DNA of 64,000 bases from Oceanococcus sp. (GTDB lineage: Bacteria > Pseudomonadota > Gammaproteobacteria > Nevskiales > Oceanococcaceae), in NCBI GenBank assembly GCA_030147945.1, contig JASBUL010000059.1, positions 1 to 64,000 of the forward strand, read 5' to 3'. Below are positions 401 to 8,706 of the stretch, piece by piece. Each line of letters opens with the position of its first letter. The first letter of the stretch is position 1. Made by a program: the position numbers and the translations under genes. The notes under the pieces are model-generated. The model worked only from the letters and a program-made list of their open reading frames with translations. It was not told where the DNA came from and did no database searches.

Positions 401-1303
401 CTAAGCTGACACAATCGGTAGCAGGTAGTGATCCAGCAACAACAACGCAAATATCGCCATCAGATAGATGATCGAATAGTTGAACAGCTTGCGTGGCAAA
501 TCATCAACAGGTTTACGCACCAACTGCCAGGACCACAGCAGGTACAACACCCCAAGCGGCAGCGCGCCTGCCAGATAGAGCCATCCACTCATCTGCGCCA
601 CGTAAGGCAGCAGCGCCACGGCAAACAGGATTGCGGTGTAGAGCAGAATCTGCAGGCTGGTGAATTGCACCCCATGGGTGACCGGCAGCATCGGAATCCC
701 CGCGCGGGCATATTCCTCACGCCGATCAATCGCCAAAGCCCAAAAATGCGGGGGCGTCCAGGCAAAGATAATCAGGAACAGGATCAGCGCATGGGCATGC
801 ACCTCACCGGTGACAGCCGTCCAGCCAAGCAGCGGCGGCGCGGCACCCGCCGCCCCACCGATCACGATGTTCTGCGGCGTCGCGCGCTTCAGGAACAGAG
901 TGTAAATCACCGCGTAACCAACCAGGGAAATCAGCGTCAACCACATCGTCAGCGTATTGGTCAGCCAGTACAGCAAGGCCGCACCGGTGATGCCCAGCAC
1001 CGCAGCGAAGCCGAGTGCCTGGGCATCGCTCAGTGTGCCGGTCGGCAGCGGTCGGCGCCGAGTTCGGGCCATACGCGCATCGGCCTCACGATCGGCCCAC
1101 TGATTGAGCACAGCCGCGCAGGCCGAGCACAGCCAGATACCCGCACTGCCCCCGAGCAGCACCGGCCAAGGCACCACTCCCGGAGTTGCCAGAAACATGC
1201 CAATCACGGCTGTGAAGACTAGCAGCAAAACAACTCGCGGCTTGGTCAGCTCGTAGTATTCACGCCAGCGTGCAACTGGCAGGGTCTCGGTCGTACTGCT
1301 CAT
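401..1303 (-). CDS. ctaB: Protoheme IX farnesyltransferase (heme O synthase)
   Basis: Adds a farnesyl group to heme B to make heme O, the precursor of heme A for the aa3-type oxidase encoded upstream. It is an integral inner-membrane protein of the UbiA prenyltransferase superfamily. Its 300 residues are mostly hydrophobic helices, with the diphosphate-binding NxxxDxxxD motif at N67, D71 and D75 followed by a basic RTRRRPLP stretch, as in CyoE/CtaB. The ATG overlaps the stop of ctaA (ATGA, 1300-1303), so the two heme-modifying enzymes are translationally coupled. It is the last gene of the cox cluster; no clear terminator was seen after it. Confidence 0.95.
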   Translation of the reverse strand: MSSTTETLPVARWREYYELTKPRVVLLLVFTAVIGMFLATPGVVPWPVLLGGSAGIWLCSACAAVLNQWADREADARMARTRRRPLPTGTLSDAQALGFAAVLGITGAALLYWLTNTLTMWLTLISLVGYAVIYTLFLKRATPQNIVIGGAAGAAPPLLGWTAVTGEVHAHALILFLIIFAWTPPHFWALAIDRREEYARAGIPMLPVTHGVQFTSLQILLYTAILFAVALLPYVAQMSGWLYLAGALPLGVLYLLWSWQLVRKPVDDLPRKLFNYSIIYLMAIFALLLLDHYLLPIVSA

Positions 1304-2301
1304 GGCGATACATCCACCAGCGCTGCCGAACTCGGGCGTTCCCGGCGCGCCATTACGTTAATACTGACAACCACCAGGGCGAGCAGCGCGGCGCCCCCGT
1401 TATGGGCCGCAGCAACCAGCAAGGGCAATCCCAGCTTTACGCTGGCGATACCCAGCGCCAGCTGCAGGCTCAACGCCCCACCCAGCAGCACCGCCAGCAC
1501 GCGTGCTTGGGTGCGCCGCCAAATGAGAACGGCCAGGCTGAACAGGGTCAGCGCGGTCACGATCGCACCGAGCCGATGGGTCAGATGGATGGCGGTACGT
1601 GCTGGACTCTCCAGAATGCCGTACTCGAAGTTGATACCCAGGCCATGCCACAACACAAAAGCGCTGGAGAAGTCGGTATCCGACGGCCACCACTGTCCAT
1701 GACAGGTTGGAAAATCCGGGCATGCCAGCGCTGCGTAGTTGCTGCTGGTCCAGCCGCCAAGGAAGATCTGCCCGATCAACACCAGCAAGGCGACCAACGA
1801 AAAACCTCGCAAGGCACGCAAGCCCTGCCCCACCGGGGCCGGGTTCTGCAGCAGACGTAACCACAATAAAAGGCTCAGGGTGGTCATGCCGCCAAGCAAA
1901 TGCGAACTGACCGCGAGCGGCTTGAGCTGCCAGGTCACCGTCCACATACCGAGGATGCCCTGAAAAATCACCACCCCGACCAGCCCCAGCAACAGGCTTC
2001 TCGGCAACCCGCGTTTCCAGCCGAAAACCGCCAGCGCGATGATCAGCAAGCCAAGGGTGGATGCGAAATAGCGATGGACCATCTCCTTCCAGGCCTTGGC
2101 GGCCTCCAGCGGGCGCTCCGCATGTCCTGCATGGGCTTCCGCCACCTGTGCATCGGGCACCAGTATCTTGCCGTAGCAACCCGGCCAGTCAGGGCAGCCA
2201 AGCCCAGCGTCTGACAGACGCACGTAAGCGCCCAGGACCACGATGCCAAAGCACAGGATCAGCGTGAACAGCGACAGTTTCTTGTAGGCAGCATCAGACA
2301 C
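1300..2301 (-). CDS. ctaA: Heme A synthase (COX15/CtaA)
   Basis: Oxidises the C8 methyl group of heme O to a formyl group, giving heme A for the caa3 oxidase. It has 333 residues with about eight transmembrane segments. The N-terminal signature GAYVRLSDAGLGCPDWPGC is typical of the type of CtaA found in proteobacteria, with a conserved cysteine pair on the periplasmic side. It overlaps ctaB by four bases and follows the thioredoxin-like assembly gene by about 86 bp, so it is probably part of the cox assembly transcript. Function is assigned from family motifs and context. Confidence 0.94.
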   Translation of the reverse strand: MSDAAYKKLSLFTLILCFGIVVLGAYVRLSDAGLGCPDWPGCYGKILVPDAQVAEAHAGHAERPLEAAKAWKEMVHRYFASTLGLLIIALAVFGWKRGLPRSLLLGLVGVVIFQGILGMWTVTWQLKPLAVSSHLLGGMTTLSLLLWLRLLQNPAPVGQGLRALRGFSLVALLVLIGQIFLGGWTSSNYAALACPDFPTCHGQWWPSDTDFSSAFVLWHGLGINFEYGILESPARTAIHLTHRLGAIVTALTLFSLAVLIWRRTQARVLAVLLGGALSLQLALGIASVKLGLPLLVAAAHNGGAALLALVVVSINVMARRERPSSAALVDVSP

Positions 2302-2387: not shown

Positions 2388-2975
2388 TTATCCGATATTG
2401 GACAGCTTGAGCAGATGCTTGATGTCCTTGTACATACCTTCCAGCGGCAGCTCATCGCCGTAATACATCAGAAAGTTGCCCAACGGATCGATCAGCAGCA
2501 CCGGATCTCGAACCGGCAACTCACCGAGCCAGCCATCAAATCGCGCGCGATCCTGTGCACTCAGCGATAGCACCTTCAAACGCGGATGGCCTTCGCCCAG
2601 TGCGGCAGCCAGCGTAGCGGCTTCGGCAGGCTCGGCAACCAGCACGGCACGCTGGACGCGTCCGCGACGTCGATGCAAGAGCGTACGCATCTGTCGGGTT
2701 TGCCACAGGCGGTACTGGCAATCGTCCGCGCACGGTGCACGCTGCACATGCAGGATTGTCCATAACCCTTCCAGGGTTTCAGCCCCACCCTCGGCCAGCT
2801 GAAATTCGACATCGGGCAGCGGTCGCGCCGGATTGAGCAAGTAGCCCTCAGCGGTATAGCTGTGCGGCTTCCACGAGTCGGGGCCGTAGTACAGCACCGC
2901 GGCCAGCACCATCGGTGCAAAAAACAGCACCGCCATGGCGATGAACTTAAGGCGATTACGATTTCTCTGGGTCAT
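2388..2975 (-). CDS. Membrane-anchored thioredoxin/SCO-like protein of the cox cluster
   Basis: A 195-residue protein with one N-terminal membrane segment (about residues 11-29) and a periplasmic domain. That domain carries a CxxxC pair (C82 and C86, in PCADDCQ) at the point where SCO1/PrrC copper chaperones carry theirs. Genes of this kind commonly sit between SURF1 and ctaA in gammaproteobacterial cox clusters and are usually listed as hypothetical. A role in CuA-site thiol reduction or copper delivery is my inference. I chose the ATG at 2975 because it overlaps the SURF1 stop (ATGA); the frame is open for 39 more codons upstream, but those lie inside SURF1. Confidence 0.8.
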   Translation of the reverse strand: MTQRNRNRLKFIAMAVLFFAPMVLAAVLYYGPDSWKPHSYTAEGYLLNPARPLPDVEFQLAEGGAETLEGLWTILHVQRAPCADDCQYRLWQTRQMRTLLHRRRGRVQRAVLVAEPAEAATLAAALGEGHPRLKVLSLSAQDRARFDGWLGELPVRDPVLLIDPLGNFLMYYGDELPLEGMYKDIKHLLKLSNIG

Positions 2976-3682
2976 GGCGATGAGCGTTTGAAATTCAGAA
3001 GGAGATACAAAATCAGGGCGGTCAGCATCAGCGCAGCCCACTGAAAGGCGTAACCATAATGCCGCTCCGGCGGGATGCCCAGATCGGTCCATTCACGGAC
3101 AAATCCGCTGGGGGCATCCGGATCGAGCAAAACAATACCGTTGGCCACCGGACGCTGATACAAGCACTCCAGCAAGCCATGCGAAGGGTAATTGAGCCGC
3201 TGCGGCCAGGACACCTGGGCGCTGTCGCAACGCCCGTCGTCGGTGGCCAGACCAGCCCGCGGCAGGCTGCGCCAGAAACCGCGCAGGGTCACGGTTTGGT
3301 CTGGTAGATCGCCTGTTTGCGGCAGCTGTTCGCGGCGCAGCGGACTGGCTATCCAGCCCCGGTTGACCAGCACCACATTGGCGGACGCCTGCAATAGCAA
3401 GGGCGTCCACACTTCAACGCCTATGCGCTTGTTATGGGTCTTGTTATCCAGCAACACCTCTTGCGCAGGCATCCAGCGCCCGCGCAGTTCGACCCGACGA
3501 CCGTGCGCCGGCAGCGCCCCGTTGCGCGCAACATCGACCACCGCATCACTGCGACTGCCCTGACGCGCTATGATGTCGACCTTTTCCTGCCCGCGCTGCA
3601 TCTGCCACCAGGCCAGACTGCCAAACAGCATCACTGCCAGGCACGTCACCAGCGTGGCCCAGACCGGCGGGCGAAATCTCAC
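2972..3682 (-). CDS. SURF1-family cytochrome oxidase assembly protein
   Basis: Assists insertion of heme A into subunit I. The 236 residues show the family layout: an N-terminal membrane helix (about residues 8-26, followed by WWQMQRGQEK), a soluble periplasmic domain with NRGWI, and a C-terminal helix ending YAFQWAALMLTALILYLLL. The start is GTG at 3680-3682, with AGGGTAG a few bases upstream. The start codon lies only 12 bp from the ATG of the divergent DUF2909 gene, so each gene's ribosome-binding site lies in or beside the other's start. Downstream it overlaps the thioredoxin-like gene by four bases. Confidence 0.9.
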   Translation of the reverse strand: MRFRPPVWATLVTCLAVMLFGSLAWWQMQRGQEKVDIIARQGSRSDAVVDVARNGALPAHGRRVELRGRWMPAQEVLLDNKTHNKRIGVEVWTPLLLQASANVVLVNRGWIASPLRREQLPQTGDLPDQTVTLRGFWRSLPRAGLATDDGRCDSAQVSWPQRLNYPSHGLLECLYQRPVANGIVLLDPDAPSGFVREWTDLGIPPERHYGYAFQWAALMLTALILYLLLNFKRSSP

Positions 3683-3694
3683 GGGGCTACCCTG

Positions 3695-3898
3695 ATGAAA
3701 CTGTTCATTTCACTGATGTTGCTGGCCATCATCGTGTCTCTCGGATTCGCGATGTTTTTCATGCTCAACGATTCGGGACCAAAGAAACGCACGGTGAATG
3801 CCCTGATGTTTCGTGTCGGCCTTTCGGTGAGCCTGATTGTGATACTGATCATCAGCTATTTCATGGGCTGGATTCAGCCCCACGGCATCGTGCCATAA
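3695..3898 (+). CDS. DUF2909 twin-transmembrane small protein
   Basis: A 67-residue protein made of two hydrophobic helices (about 3-23 and 38-58) joined by a short polar, basic loop (SGPKKRTVN). It matches the DUF2909 'twin transmembrane' proteins found in proteobacterial cox clusters, whose function is unknown. It is the only plus-strand gene in the oxidase cluster, transcribed against SURF1 and coxC. The ATG at 3695 gives a full-length protein; the longer open frame upstream is antisense to SURF1. It ends just before a bidirectional terminator. Confidence 0.82.
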   Translation: MKLFISLMLLAIIVSLGFAMFFMLNDSGPKKRTVNALMFRVGLSVSLIVILIISYFMGWIQPHGIVP

Positions 3899-3972: not shown

Positions 3973-4833
3973 CTACAGAATGTAGACGAACACGAACAGG
4001 CCGAGCCAGACCACGTCGACAAAGTGCCAATACCAGGCCACACCTTCAAAGCCGAAATGCGAGTCGGATTTGAAGTGCCCTTTCATCAAGCGCAGCGTAA
4101 TCACCAGCAGCATCAGGGTACCGAGGGTGACGTGCATGCCGTGGAAGCCGGTGAGCATGAAGAAGGTGGAACCGTAGATGCCCGACTCCAGCGTCAGATT
4201 CAGATGCTGGTAGGCCACGATGTACTCTTCGGCCTGGAAGAACAGGAAGATGCAACCCAGGGCCACGGTTGCCCACATCCACAGAATCACATTGCGGCGC
4301 GGCTTGTTTTCACGCAGACCGTGGTGAGCGAAGGTCAGTGTCACACCCGAGGTCAGCAGCAGCATGGTGTTGAGGAACGGCACGCCCCATGGCGGGATGA
4401 TGCCGAAATCGCCACCAACGCCACCCGGGCCATTGGTCGGCCAGGCGTTCTCGAACTGCGGCCAAAGCACCGCGTTGGTCATCACATCACTGCCACCCAG
4501 CCACGGCAGCGAAAGCTGGCGTGCGTAGAACAGGGCGCCGAAGAACGCACCGAAAAACATCACTTCGGAGAAGATGAACCAGCCCATGCCCCAACGATAG
4601 GTCATGTCGACCTGCTGGCCGTATTTGCCGGACTCGGATTCATTGATGATGCCGCGGAACCAGATCCAGATGAACGCCAGCGAGATCGCCAGCCCGGTCC
4701 AGATCAGCATCGAAGCGCCATGACCGTTGAGATAGTTGGATACACCGCCCAACATCAGGAACAGGCCAATCGTCAGATAGAACGGCCACGCAGTGGGGGC
4801 AGGAACGAAGTATCCGCCAGTATTGCTCGACAT
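3973..4833 (-). CDS. coxC: Cytochrome c oxidase subunit III
   Basis: Structural subunit of the aa3/caa3 oxidase that stabilises the D-pathway of subunit I. From the ATG at 4833 the protein is 286 residues, starting MSSNTGGYFVPAPTAWPF, with about seven membrane helices. It shows the family stretches RWGMGWFIFSEVMFFGAFFGALFYAR, TNGPGGVGG and GFHGMHVTLGT. A longer frame runs to 4884 but would overlap the end of ctaG, so the shorter start is preferred. A terminator separates it from SURF1, so the assembly genes further left may need their own promoter or read-through. Confidence 0.95.
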   Translation of the reverse strand: MSSNTGGYFVPAPTAWPFYLTIGLFLMLGGVSNYLNGHGASMLIWTGLAISLAFIWIWFRGIINESESGKYGQQVDMTYRWGMGWFIFSEVMFFGAFFGALFYARQLSLPWLGGSDVMTNAVLWPQFENAWPTNGPGGVGGDFGIIPPWGVPFLNTMLLLTSGVTLTFAHHGLRENKPRRNVILWMWATVALGCIFLFFQAEEYIVAYQHLNLTLESGIYGSTFFMLTGFHGMHVTLGTLMLLVITLRLMKGHFKSDSHFGFEGVAWYWHFVDVVWLGLFVFVYIL

Positions 4834-4849: not shown

Positions 4850-5410
4850 TCACTGGGCGGCCTGGGCCAGCCCGGTTGCATCAAATAAGGTATACGACAG
4901 GGTTACCGTAGTAACCTCCGGCGGCAAAGCGGGATCCAGCATGAAGCGGACCGGCATCTGTTTGTATTCGCCGGCATCCAGCGTCTGCTGGGAAAAACAG
5001 AAGCATTCGGTCTTGCGCACGTAGCGGGCCGCATTCCACGGCACCACACTGGGTGTGGCCTGGGTGATGTAATCCTGCGCGGTCCGGTTCTCGGCAAAAA
5101 AGTTGACCGTATACAACTTGCCCGGATGCACTTCGATGGCGTTGGTTTCCGCCCCGAAGCCCCAGTCCAGACTGTTGTTCACCGTGGTCAGGAACTCCAC
5201 ACGCACAACGCGATCCTGATCCGGCGCTTCGGCCACGCTGTCCTGCAACTGTATGCCGTCGGTTTTGCCGTTCAGGCCTGTGATGTCACAGACCAGACCG
5301 TAAAGCGGCACCAGGGCATAGCCGAAGGCAAACATGCCCAGCACCAGACCGCCCAGACGAGCCAAATGCCAAACGCGCTGGCGTGGTGAACGCTGCTTGT
5401 CAGCGCTCAC
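4850..5410 (-). CDS. ctaG: Cytochrome c oxidase copper chaperone CtaG/Cox11
   Basis: Delivers copper to the CuB site of subunit I. Its 186 residues comprise a short cytoplasmic tail, one membrane anchor (about 18-38) and a periplasmic immunoglobulin-like domain. The copper-binding CFCF motif is present in KTECFCFSQQTL, and VNNSLDWGF and QDYITQATPSVVPW are also family-typical. The start is GTG (5408-5410), overlapping the TGA of the 38-codon gene upstream. This places it between coxA and coxC, the usual proteobacterial order coxB-coxA-ctaG-coxC. Confidence 0.95.
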   Translation of the reverse strand: MSADKQRSPRQRVWHLARLGGLVLGMFAFGYALVPLYGLVCDITGLNGKTDGIQLQDSVAEAPDQDRVVRVEFLTTVNNSLDWGFGAETNAIEVHPGKLYTVNFFAENRTAQDYITQATPSVVPWNAARYVRKTECFCFSQQTLDAGEYKQMPVRFMLDPALPPEVTTVTLSYTLFDATGLAQAAQ

Positions 5411-5523
5411 CGCGACATCACCACAAACATGGCGAAATAGAACGTCAGCGCAACCGCGCCCAGCATCAGTGCGAGACGCACATTGCTGGGACGCTTGTTG
5501 TTACGCGGGTCCTGATCGCTCAC
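5407..5523 (-). CDS. Small single-helix oxidase assembly protein, 38 aa
   Basis: A short gene too small for ordinary ORF listings. It starts GTG (5521-5523), two bases after the coxA stop, and its TGA (5407-5409) overlaps the GTG of ctaG. The product begins MSDQDPRNNKRPSNVRLAL, continues as one membrane helix (LMLGAVALTFYFAMFVVM) and ends SR. In betaproteobacteria a 'cytochrome oxidase small assembly protein' of this size and shape sits in the same place, which supports it being real. Its function is unknown; stabilising subunit I or CtaG is my inference. Confidence 0.75.
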   Translation of the reverse strand: MSDQDPRNNKRPSNVRLALMLGAVALTFYFAMFVVMSR

Positions 5524-5525
5524 GT

Positions 5526-7160
5526 TTAAGCTCGCGACGGGGCCGCAGCCGGCTCATCGTGCACCGCAGTGATTTCGCTCTCGCTGATCACCGGCGGGGT
5601 TTCAAAAGTGTGATATGGCGCCGGCGACGGCACGGTCCATTCCAGCCCATGAGCCCCTTCCCAAACGCGCGCGGTCGCCGGAGCACCCTTACGCATCACA
5701 CAGTTCACGATCCAGTTGTAGGCCATGATGAACTGCGCGATGAAGAAGAAGAATGCGCCGATGGACGAAATCACGTTCCAGTCGGTGAACTGCACGGCGT
5801 AGTCAGGAATACGGCGCGGCATACCCGCCAGACCGGCAAAATGCTGCGGGAAGAAAGTCAGGTTAATGGCGATTGCCGACAGCCAGAAATGCAGCTTGCC
5901 GAGACCTTCGTGATACATGTGCCCGGTCCACTTCGGCATCCAGTAGTACATGCCGGCGATGATCGAGAACACAGCACCCGGCACCAGCACATAGTGGAAA
6001 TGCGCAACCACAAAGTAGCTGTCGTGGTACTGGAAATCAGCCGGAGCAATCGCCAGCATCAACCCAGAAAAACCACCGATGGTGAACAGGAACACGAAGC
6101 CCAGCGCGAACAACATCGGTGTTTCGAAGGTCATGGACCCGCGCCACATGGTGGCCACCCAGTTGAACACTTTGACCCCGGTGGGCACCGCGATAAGCAT
6201 GGTGGCGAACATGAAGAACAACTCGCCAGCCAGCGGCATACCCACCGTAAACATGTGGTGGGCCCACACGATGAACGACAGGAATGCGATCGAAGCCATG
6301 GCGTAGACCATGGAGTCGTAGCCGAACAAGGTCTTGCGCGCGAAGGTCGGAATGATCGTGGAGACGATACCGAAAGCCGGCAGAATCAGGATGTAGACCT
6401 CGGGATGACCGAAGAACCAGAAGATGTGCTGGTACATGACCGGGTCACCACCGCCGGCAGCGGTGAAGAAGCTGGTGCCGAAGTATTTGTCGGTCAGCAA
6501 CATGGTCACGGCACCGGCCAGAACCGGCATCGTCGCAATCAACAGGTAGGCCGTGATCAACCAGGACCATACGAACAACGGCATTTTCAGCAGGGTCATA
6601 CCCGGCGCGCGCATGTTCAAAATGGTCACGATCACGTTGATCGCCCCGGTGATCGAGGAGATCCCCATCAAATGGATGGCGAAGATCATGAACGGGAAGG
6701 CATCACCGGTCTGCAACACCAGCGGCGGGTACATGGTCCAGCCACTGGCCGGCGCACCGCCACCCATGAACAGGGTCGACAGCAACAGCGTGAAGGCAAA
6801 CGGCAGAATCCAGAAGCCCCAGTTGTTAACACGTGGCAGAGCCAGATCACTGGCGCCAACCATCATCGGGACCATCCAGTTGGCCAGACCGGTAAAGGCC
6901 GGCATCACCCCACCGAAAATCATGATCAACGCATGCATGGTGGTCATGGAGTTGAAGAACTCCGGATTGACCCACTGCAGGCCCGGCGAGAACAGCTCAA
7001 GACGGATAATCAGCGACATCACGCCGCCGATGAAGAACATGATGAAGGCAAACCACAGATACAGGGTGCCCAGATCTTTATGGTTGGTGGTTTTTATCCA
7101 CCGCATGATGCCCTTTTCCGGGCCGTGATCGTCGTGATGACTATCGTGATGTTCGCTCAT
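5526..7160 (-). CDS. coxA: Cytochrome c oxidase subunit I (A1-type heme-copper oxidase)
   Basis: Catalytic subunit that reduces O2 to water and pumps protons. The 544 residues form about twelve membrane helices. Visible ligands: H76 and H389 for low-spin heme a, H252, H301 and H302 for CuB with Y256 as the cross-linked tyrosine (GHPEVY), and H387 for heme a3 (HFHYVL). The glutamate in GHPEV marks the A1 subfamily. The N-terminus is rich in His and Asp ([13 protein letters not shown]), a feature seen in many proteobacterial homologues. It follows coxB by 19 bp and precedes the 38-codon gene by two. Confidence 0.97.
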
Positions 7161-7179: not shown

Positions 7180-8346
7180 TTAGCGACGGGCAGCAATTTG
7201 GGCCGGCTGAACCACATCGCCGGCGGCATTGCCCAGGGCATTACGTTCATAGGTGACGACCGCGGCAATTTCGCGATCCTTGAGGTATGCGAAGGCCGCC
7301 ATGGCATTCTTGCCCTGCAGCACCATGTCGATGTGGGCGTCAACCGGCCCGTTCGCAATCTGACTTCCCGTCAACGGCGGGAAATTGGCAGCCGCCATCC
7401 CCGAACCATCCGCCTGATGGCAGGCCGAGCAGTAGTTCTTGTAAACCTTTTCACCTTCCGACATGAGCTGATCACGGGTCAGCTCGGCCGGCTCGCTGCT
7501 TACCGCAGGCGCATCAGCACTGGCCACTTCAACCGGTTCGGCTGCAGCGCTCTGTTCATCTGCGCCACCAACCTTGCCGCCACGCTCGGCGATCCAACGC
7601 TCATACTCTTCAAGCTGAACAGCACGCACAACCACCGGCATAAAGCCATGGTCACGACCACACAGCTCAGCGCACTGGCCACGGTAGATACCGGGCTCAT
7701 CAATCTTGGTCCACAGCTGGTTGATGTAGCCCGGAACGGCGTCCTTCTTGGTCGCCAGCTCCGGCACCCACCAAGCGTGGATGACATCATTGGAGGTCAG
7801 CAGCAAACGCACTTTCTTGCCAACCGGCAGGACCAGCGGCTCATCCACTTCCAGCAGATAGTTGGGCACATCGGCGGGATTGATACCCGAGTTCAACTGA
7901 CGCGCAACGTTGCTCTTGGCATCCATATTGGAGAAGAACGAAACGCCTTCATCCATATATTCGTAGTGCCACTTCCACTGATAGCCGGTGATCTTGATGG
8001 TGATATCGGCATCGGAGGTGTCCTCCATCTTGATCAACGTACCGGCAGCCGGAATAGCCATTGCGATCAAAATGACGAAGGGCAGCACGGTCCATGCAAT
8101 CTCGACCTTGATGCTCTCGTGGAAATCCGCCGGTTTGGGGTGAACCGACTTACGGTGAGCGATGATGGAGTAGATCATCACGCCGAACACCGCGGCGCCA
8201 ATCGCGCAGCAGATGTAGAAAATCAGCATGTGCAATCCATGCACTTCCCGGCTGATCTCGGTCACACCGACGGGCATGTTGTATTCGGCAGCATGCGCCA
8301 AACTGGCCAGCACCATGCCCGACAGGCCCCAAATCAATCGTCCCAT
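7180..8346 (-). CDS. coxB: Cytochrome c oxidase subunit II with fused cytochrome c domain (caa3 type)
   Basis: Takes electrons into the oxidase through CuA. The order is signal peptide (MGRLIWGLSGMVLASLAHA), two membrane helices, a cupredoxin domain with CuA ligands (HAWWVPEL, then C-x3-C-x3-H-x2-M in CAELCGRDHGFM), an Ala/Glu-rich linker, and a C-terminal cytochrome c domain with heme site CSACH and a Met in KNAMAAFAYL. The fused heme domain makes this a caa3-type enzyme, so it need not use a separate soluble cytochrome c in the same way as plain aa3. I chose the ATG at 8346 because GGAG lies nine bases upstream; earlier in-frame starts exist up to 8394. Confidence 0.95.
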   Translation of the reverse strand: MGRLIWGLSGMVLASLAHAAEYNMPVGVTEISREVHGLHMLIFYICCAIGAAVFGVMIYSIIAHRKSVHPKPADFHESIKVEIAWTVLPFVILIAMAIPAAGTLIKMEDTSDADITIKITGYQWKWHYEYMDEGVSFFSNMDAKSNVARQLNSGINPADVPNYLLEVDEPLVLPVGKKVRLLLTSNDVIHAWWVPELATKKDAVPGYINQLWTKIDEPGIYRGQCAELCGRDHGFMPVVVRAVQLEEYERWIAERGGKVGGADEQSAAAEPVEVASADAPAVSSEPAELTRDQLMSEGEKVYKNYCSACHQADGSGMAAANFPPLTGSQIANGPVDAHIDMVLQGKNAMAAFAYLKDREIAAVVTYERNALGNAAGDVVQPAQIAARR

Positions 8347-8706
8347 TCGACAATTCTCCATCACTTTGTTCATCGTGGCGTTCCGGCAAGCCACCGCGGT
8401 GACTGCGTCGACAGCGCTTTTTCAAGCACCGTTATCTATCGTCTGCGTCAAAGCGCATACCGCTCGGGCAGCTGTCCTCGCGGCACCGACCGGCTCCCTT
8501 GTAAGGCACGGCCAACGGGCTGTGTAGCCTCTCCCCAAACAGGTTATCGAGCCGCACGCGTACATTCGTCCAGCTCAGCATTGGAATTTTAGTCCATCCC
8601 TGTGCGACAGGCCACTCCCAAAATCTGTCGGGGCTGCAAAAACACTTTGCTGATCTGAAATTTCGGCGCTAGTCTGGCCCATCACATTCTCCCCACGGGA
8701 ATCTGT
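8347..8706. promoter_or_regulatory. Divergent control region between coxB and the molybdopterin oxidoreductase
   Basis: This 360-bp gap must hold the promoters of the cox operon (leftward) and of the oxidoreductase (rightward). For the rightward gene I can point to TTGCTG (8647-8652), 17 bp, then TAGTCT (8670-8675). This is a weak sigma70 match ending about 30 bp before the start codon. For the leftward cox promoter I found no convincing -35/-10 pair. No RNA gene or conserved ORF is apparent. Confidence 0.35.

Follow-up and report, generated by a model that had tools for sequence, protein, structure and literature searches.

A 38-codon frame between coxA and ctaG of Oceanococcus sp., located in the 64,000-nucleotide stretch of DNA that was analysed as a whole (hereafter the window), is, to judge from its substitutions, a real, selected gene, and is presumably translated. 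It belongs to a proteobacterial family of small proteins whose genes lie next to ctaG, immediately behind coxA, or both. Based on profile comparisons, this family is probably homologous to COA3, and its members are candidate chaperones of newly made CoxA.

Genomic context of the small gene

The genes of the cox cluster are arranged on one strand in the order coxB-coxA-orf38-ctaG-coxC, followed by surf1, ctaA, and ctaB (Table 1). A previous sequence-only reading of this DNA had placed a 38-codon frame at these coordinates without giving its strand; the frame exists and belongs to the minus strand; at 5407–5523 the plus strand reads differently. The junctions described at that time were borne out. 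The GTG start codon at 5523 follows the coxA stop codon (TAA at 5526) by 2 nt, while the TGA stop codon at 5409–5407 shares the 4-nt overlap GTGA with the ctaG start codon, the GTG at 5410. The ORF encodes the product MSDQDPRNNKRPSNVRLALMLGAVALTFYFAMFVVMSR, in which a polar, basic head precedes the hydrophobic stretch LALMLGAVALTFYFAMFVV. The structure predicted by AlphaFold2 from the single window sequence consists of one helix spanning residues 12–37 (mean pLDDT 80, head approximately 57), which agrees with the polar head and single membrane helix previously suggested. By the positive-inside rule, the protein would be situated in the inner membrane with its basic head in the cytoplasm. No promoter was found by a promoter scan.

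Table 1. Features of the cox cluster, in coordinates of the window
Feature	Position	Strand	Evidence and remarks
ctaB (cox10), UbiA prenyltransferase / heme o synthase	401..1303	-	PF01040 1.3e-72
ctaA (cox15), heme a synthase	1300..2301	-	PF02628 2.9e-73
surf1	2972..3682	-	PF02104 6e-29
DUF2909 / twin transmembrane helix small protein	3695..3898	+	PF11137 71.3 bits, NF033233 56.6 bits, both above cut-off
coxC, subunit III	3973..4833	-	PF00510 4e-55; ATG start adopted
ctaG (cox11), CuB insertion factor	4850..5410	-	NF003465 204.8 bits, above cut-off; PF04442
38-aa single-helix microprotein gene	5407..5523	-	Starts with GTG and ends with TGA; COA3-like / small oxidase assembly protein
coxA (ctaD), cytochrome c oxidase subunit I	5526..7160	-	TIGR02891 689.5 bits, above cut-off; PF00115
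coxB, subunit II with C-terminal cytochrome c domain	7180..8394 (longest frame)	-	PF00116, PF13442

The longest coxC frame would begin with a TTG at 4884. The C-terminal cytochrome c domain of the coxB product is that of a caa3-like subunit II. The DUF2909 gene is located inside the cluster, between coxC and surf1, on the opposite strand, and a 234-aa frame of uncertain start and without a Pfam match is present between surf1 and ctaA (2391–3092, minus strand).

Selection on the small frame

The nearest relative, G001, a genome of the same genus, keeps the start, stop, frame and ctaG overlap of the small gene. The two frames differ at 10 positions, nine of them synonymous and one nonsynonymous, corresponding to a dN/dS of 0.027 over the protein-aligned codons (binomial P 2e-5). 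A dN/dS below 1 was obtained in all 12 protein-aligned pairs with at least 70% identity, which are not independent of each other; the value is at most 0.133 in eight pairs, and is 0.33, 0.44, 0.44, and 0.72 in the remaining four. Loss of the frame or of its hydrophobic pattern in close relatives was looked for as a refutation, and both were found to be kept.

Distribution in the class and the phylum

The comparison of the coxA-ctaG gap across relatives, as recommended in the sequence-only reading, was made in a sample of 61 genomes from the order. CtaG was found in 41 of these, and a hydrophobic small ORF occupies the gap at all 41 ctaG-bearing loci. In the class sample of 185 genomes, CtaG was present in 106. 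The gap survey comprised 105 loci in which coxA was visible, after four others that lacked coxA had been dropped. Gaps of at least 80 nt hold a hydrophobic small ORF in 68 of 71 cases. Among the remaining 34 loci, which have a smaller gap or, in one case, no ctaG match, a single ORF was found, a doubtful 22-aa frame. Hydrophobicity was the only filter applied in this survey, and two frames that passed it, at L124 and L147, were not family-like on inspection. At L108, L159, L161, and L308 the gap is roomy enough but no such frame is present.

In a further set of 80 loci from named taxa (the named set, some genomes of which are shared with the earlier samples), ORFs were scored using a profile of the earlier members. 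Of the 50 gaps that reach 80 nt, 49 hold the ORF, as against none of the 24 narrower ones. Three loci without ctaG before coxC also carry it and one without ctaG has no room for it, while two loci are cut short by the contig end, the ORF being present in one of the two. The carriers include Solimonas, Hydrocarboniphaga, Woeseiaceae, Lysobacter, Luteimonas, Xanthomonas sp., Rhodanobacter, and Methylococcus. In other lineages coxA and ctaG are present and the small gene is absent from this place; ctaG abuts coxA in, e.g., Shewanella, Alteromonas, Idiomarina, Rheinheimera, Photobacterium, Microbulbifer, and Marinobacterium, and so leaves no room for a small gene in Shewanella and Alteromonas. A search with the family profile through 30 genomes in which ctaG abuts coxA gave no clear copy and four weak matches (E value 0.006 to 0.06). 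Five of the six positive controls of this search, five of the six being themselves in the profile, were found in the slot, and G195 was missed.

Loci from genomes representing the phylum's other classes, here termed alpha-type, have a different arrangement. At 25 of the 26 ctaG places inspected (out of 35), ctaG is closely preceded by ctaB, and a small ORF judged similar by eye is located between the two; the exception, L203, has neither ctaB nor the small ORF. Methylobacterium aquaticum (L346) is a named example of the ctaB-ORF-ctaG order. Two Methylobacterium matches, both unannotated, were also obtained in a search of plasmid records.

Retention of the small gene in genomes lacking ctaG

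The order and class samples contain 98 ctaG-less genomes (20 and 79, respectively, with G008 in both), 80 of which were searched for CoxA. Twelve genomes with no PF04442 match carry a CoxA of at least 72% identity, and in 11 of these 12 the small ORF follows coxA. In the twelfth, G008, the coxA copy inspected lacks the ORF, and a PF09813 match lies 31 nt from the second coxA copy. G008 and G017 each have two CoxA copies and were judged by one of them, and G041 has only a CoxA fragment at a contig end. Among the ctaG-less genomes with a more distant CoxA, the ORF is present in G120 (61%) and absent from G137 (68%) as well as from G043, G011, G039, and G014 (60–62%). A CtaG protein search in 25 ctaG-less genomes revealed only a short remnant, in G099, where the small ORF is intact and only the N-terminal part of ctaG is left.

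The pattern of the ORF in these genomes indicates that the small protein is independent of CtaG and tracks the closer type of CoxA. Moreover, since 11 of 12 such genomes keep the frame after coxA, CoxA would be a more likely partner than CtaG. The overlap with ctaG noted in the sequence-only reading stands for the window, but the tie to ctaG is not obligatory, the gene surviving where ctaG is lost.

Several of these loci merit separate description. The remnant in G099 (L245, 3240–3430) lies between the intact small ORF and coxC, and represents a snapshot of ctaG loss. A close CoxA together with coxC is found at L235–L239, L241–L244, and L246, which belong to order family f6 (genera g16 and g20) and to the class genomes G180 and G177; CtaG/Cox11 was not found in these genomes by either profile or protein search. 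The Rhodanobacter loci L339 and L343, and also L285, show the same order as f6: coxA is followed by the small ORF and then by coxC, and ctaG is missing from the locus.

Relation to known small oxidase proteins

The NCBIfam model NF038351 (cyt_ox_assem_30, cytochrome oxidase small assembly protein), which we take to describe a betaproteobacterial family, already names a small gene in this slot, and the presence of such a gene is therefore not new. Only two of the 185 class genomes have a hit above its cut-off, G166 (L148) and G075 (L110), and both hits lie between coxA and ctaG, so that the correspondence of position noted in the sequence-only reading holds. The window protein, for which NF038351 was the only match in Pfam and NCBIfam, reaches 14.5 bits (E value 0.023) against a cut-off of 27.5. 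For this reason its assignment is carried by position and the family profile, and not by NF038351. The model is matched by 21 of 50 members at E values up to 5 (best 7.4e-14). When 10 members were tested against the cut-off one passed, and none of the six alpha-type members did (best 22.2 bits).

The alphaproteobacterial ORF between ctaB and ctaG is presumably CoxF. It resembles the small protein of the window in size, in its basic head and single helix, and in its location immediately 5' of ctaG. It differs in gene order (coxA-ctaB-orf-ctaG or ctaB-orf-ctaG, as opposed to coxA-orf-ctaG) and in a tail that is often longer. Subunit IV of the bacterial aa3 oxidase, which we take to correspond to PF07835, is likewise a small single-helix oxidase protein. 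However, the window protein has no match to PF07835, and this family was absent among the best 25 of 35 and the best 25 of 38 Pfam families matched by 103 members. A search of the PDB with the family profile returned no solved chain below an E value of 0.1, the best match (E value 0.1) being a designed protein.

The mitochondrial protein COA3 (MITRAC12, CCDC56) has in common with the family a basic stretch, P-R-R-R-T-R-N in the human protein, which precedes one helix with a mid-helix Tyr. It works on COX1 in the pathway to which COX11 also belongs, and is longer than the bacterial proteins, with additional ends.

Similarity to COA3

Fifty members, 31 from the class of the window and 19 alpha-type, were scanned singly against Pfam-A. 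The commonest match was Coa3_cc (PF09813), found for 19 of the 50 at E values up to 5 (best 9.4e-6), with six matches for the next family. Because these members had been chosen by eye with the COA3 idea already in mind, the scan was run again with another 53 ORFs, taken from the named set; Coa3_cc was matched by 11 of them (best 3.4e-5). Shuffled copies in which head, helix and tail were permuted separately gave no match in either set (0/50 and 0/53), i.e., 30 of 103 pooled members match PF09813 versus 0 of 103 shuffled copies. The similarity to COA3 extends beyond composition for the family, not for the window protein alone, which matched no Pfam family at E values up to 1 or up to 5. The 27-bit cut-off of PF09813 was passed in none of the 34 alpha-type and none of the 185 class genomes, the best family member scoring 25.6 bits.

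The location of the PF09813 matches is also informative. In the 34 alpha-type genomes, 16 of 42 matches (E value up to 1) lie at most 400 nt 5' of ctaG, where approximately 0.002 would be expected; these 16 come from 15 genomes and include the three best matches. In the 185 class genomes the best match is the coxA-ctaG ORF of G195 (E value 1e-4), which the family profile itself misses at an E value of 0.1, and the second and third best lie elsewhere. Among the 34 class matches below 0.1, eight are located by ctaG, one of which (G068, 10 nt from ctaG) is probably the head of ctaG itself, and two by coxA without ctaG. The model is noisy, with matches in 9 of 14 control genomes at E values up to 1.

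For the reverse comparison, sequences taken to be those of human COA3 and yeast Coa3 were used; their scores on PF09813, 72.3 and 21.3 bits, respectively, support these identities, and that of the yeast protein is below the 25.6 bits reached among the bacterial ORFs. With the profile built from the 50 members, human COA3 is detected at 23.4 bits (E value 2.7e-5), a score reached by none of 2000 shuffles of the human sequence. No non-member among 15,024 frames outranks it: the 114 distinct frames above human COA3 are 104 flagged members and 10 that, judged by locus and frame, are further members adjacent to ctaG or coxA. Human COA3 scores weakly with the gamma-only (14.2 bits; 0/2000 shuffles), alpha-only (14.0 bits; 1/2000) and named-set profiles (12.3 bits; 0/2000). 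With two profiles built from shuffled members it scores 6.7 and 8.2 bits, and of 2000 shuffles 462 and 410, respectively, do at least as well. Yeast Coa3 was not recovered by any bacterial profile, and human COA3 had no real match in the PDB.

The N-terminal helix of some CtaG proteins also scores with these models. Frames containing this helix at L102 and L167 outrank human COA3 with the gamma-only profile, and PF09813 matches the head of ctaG itself in G068 (contig C130) and G129 (contig C3).

The region of resemblance comprises approximately 35 residues, mostly helix. The commonest residues in the family are a basic R/K cluster, often an N, and then A-L-x-L-x3-A-x2-F-Y-x2-F. The mid-helix Tyr, Y29 in the window protein, is a Tyr in 69 and a Phe in 22 of 103 members, and aligns with Y72 of human COA3. 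A patient carrying Y72C on one COA3 allele, with the other encoding a truncated protein, lost COX1 and COX14 (PMC11011759). As the Pfam cut-off is not reached, only about 35 residues are shared, yeast Coa3 is not recovered, and the window protein itself gives no hit, we have not filed the window protein as COA3.

Proposed function and alternatives

In humans, COA3 and COX14 are described as chaperones that act in the folding of newly made COX1, and COA3 occurs together with COX11 in early metallochaperone complexes (PMC9232578). CoxA, the small protein and the CuB inserter are encoded one after another in the same order as these events. On these grounds a CoxA-holding role is proposed, and with reasonable but limited confidence we regard the small protein as a single-helix chaperone of new CoxA, the counterpart of COA3. 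It would be made right after CoxA through coupled translation, and its helix would bind the newly inserted CoxA. It might then hold CoxA stable and open during the insertion of heme a and, via CtaG/Cox11, of CuB, and depart once the cofactors are in place, a role equivalent to that of COA3 with COX1 in mitochondria. Translation, CoxA binding, chaperone action, topology, and common descent with COA3 are all inferred here.

Alternatively, the protein might be a structural component of the mature aa3 oxidase, a small single-helix subunit comparable to subunit IV. In favour of this, it has one helix, is encoded in the structural operon directly after coxA, and is kept where ctaG is gone. Structures of the aa3 oxidases of Paracoccus and Rhodobacter exist, yet no solved chain matches the family profile at the threshold given above, PF07835 is not among the best-matched families, and the similarity that was detected is to an assembly factor; we consider a subunit unlikely. 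Even less probable is a helper specific to CtaG/Cox11, for instance a membrane adaptor for CuB insertion. The gene does overlap the ctaG start in the window and adjoins ctaG in the alpha-type loci, where its other neighbour is ctaB and not coxA, but genomes without an intact ctaG keep the small ORF after coxA, including G099 with its decayed ctaG, and many lineages have ctaG without the small gene. That the frame is a mere spacer or leader for translation coupling, with an idle peptide, is very improbable: the 2-nt and 4-nt junctions favour coupled translation, but the peptide is under purifying selection, its residues are conserved family-wide, and the frame is maintained without ctaG.

Whatever the role, the likeness to COA3 could have arisen by convergence on a basic head and a helix, perhaps in kin of the ctaG N-terminal helix. 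The shortness of the region, the failure to recover yeast Coa3, and the scores of ctaG N-terminal helices with the gamma-only profile and PF09813 are in keeping with this. Such an origin is nevertheless somewhat doubtful, given the contrast between members and shuffled copies, the absence of non-member frames above human COA3 with the 50-member profile, and the alignment of the conserved Tyr with Y72, the site of a patient mutation.

Novelty and implications

The phrase "oxidase small assembly protein" was not found in the literature searched, nor was any report of a bacterial relative of COA3, in literature partly represented by excerpts. A 2019 review states that bacteria have neither Cox14 nor Coa3 (PMC6696091). 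The portion consulted of an orthology paper linking COA3 to CCDC56 mentions no bacterial COA3 (PMC3334569), and a jakobid survey gives COA3 as n.d. in the part used here (PMC7050145). The extent of the family, its independence of ctaG and its likeness to COA3 appear new, and most of the family members described fall under the NF038351 cut-off.

We lean slightly towards the view that COA3 is not a eukaryotic invention. It would derive from a bacterial cox-operon microprotein that is encoded next to coxA/ctaG and chaperones subunit I. This protein would already have been present in the ancestor of Pseudomonadota, would have disappeared from crown gammaproteobacteria, Shewanella and Alteromonas among them, and would have entered mitochondria via the alphaproteobacterial ancestor, the gene in the window being a living copy. 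The assembly of the alphaproteobacterial aa3 oxidase has been described as requiring five factors (PMC9232578), and a conserved COA3-like bacterial microprotein would, if true, be a sixth. It would likewise provide a simple bacterial system for COA3, a human disease gene (PMC11011759), and would date the COX1 chaperone to before mitochondria. A gene of approximately 40 codons can thus escape curated models across a phylum.
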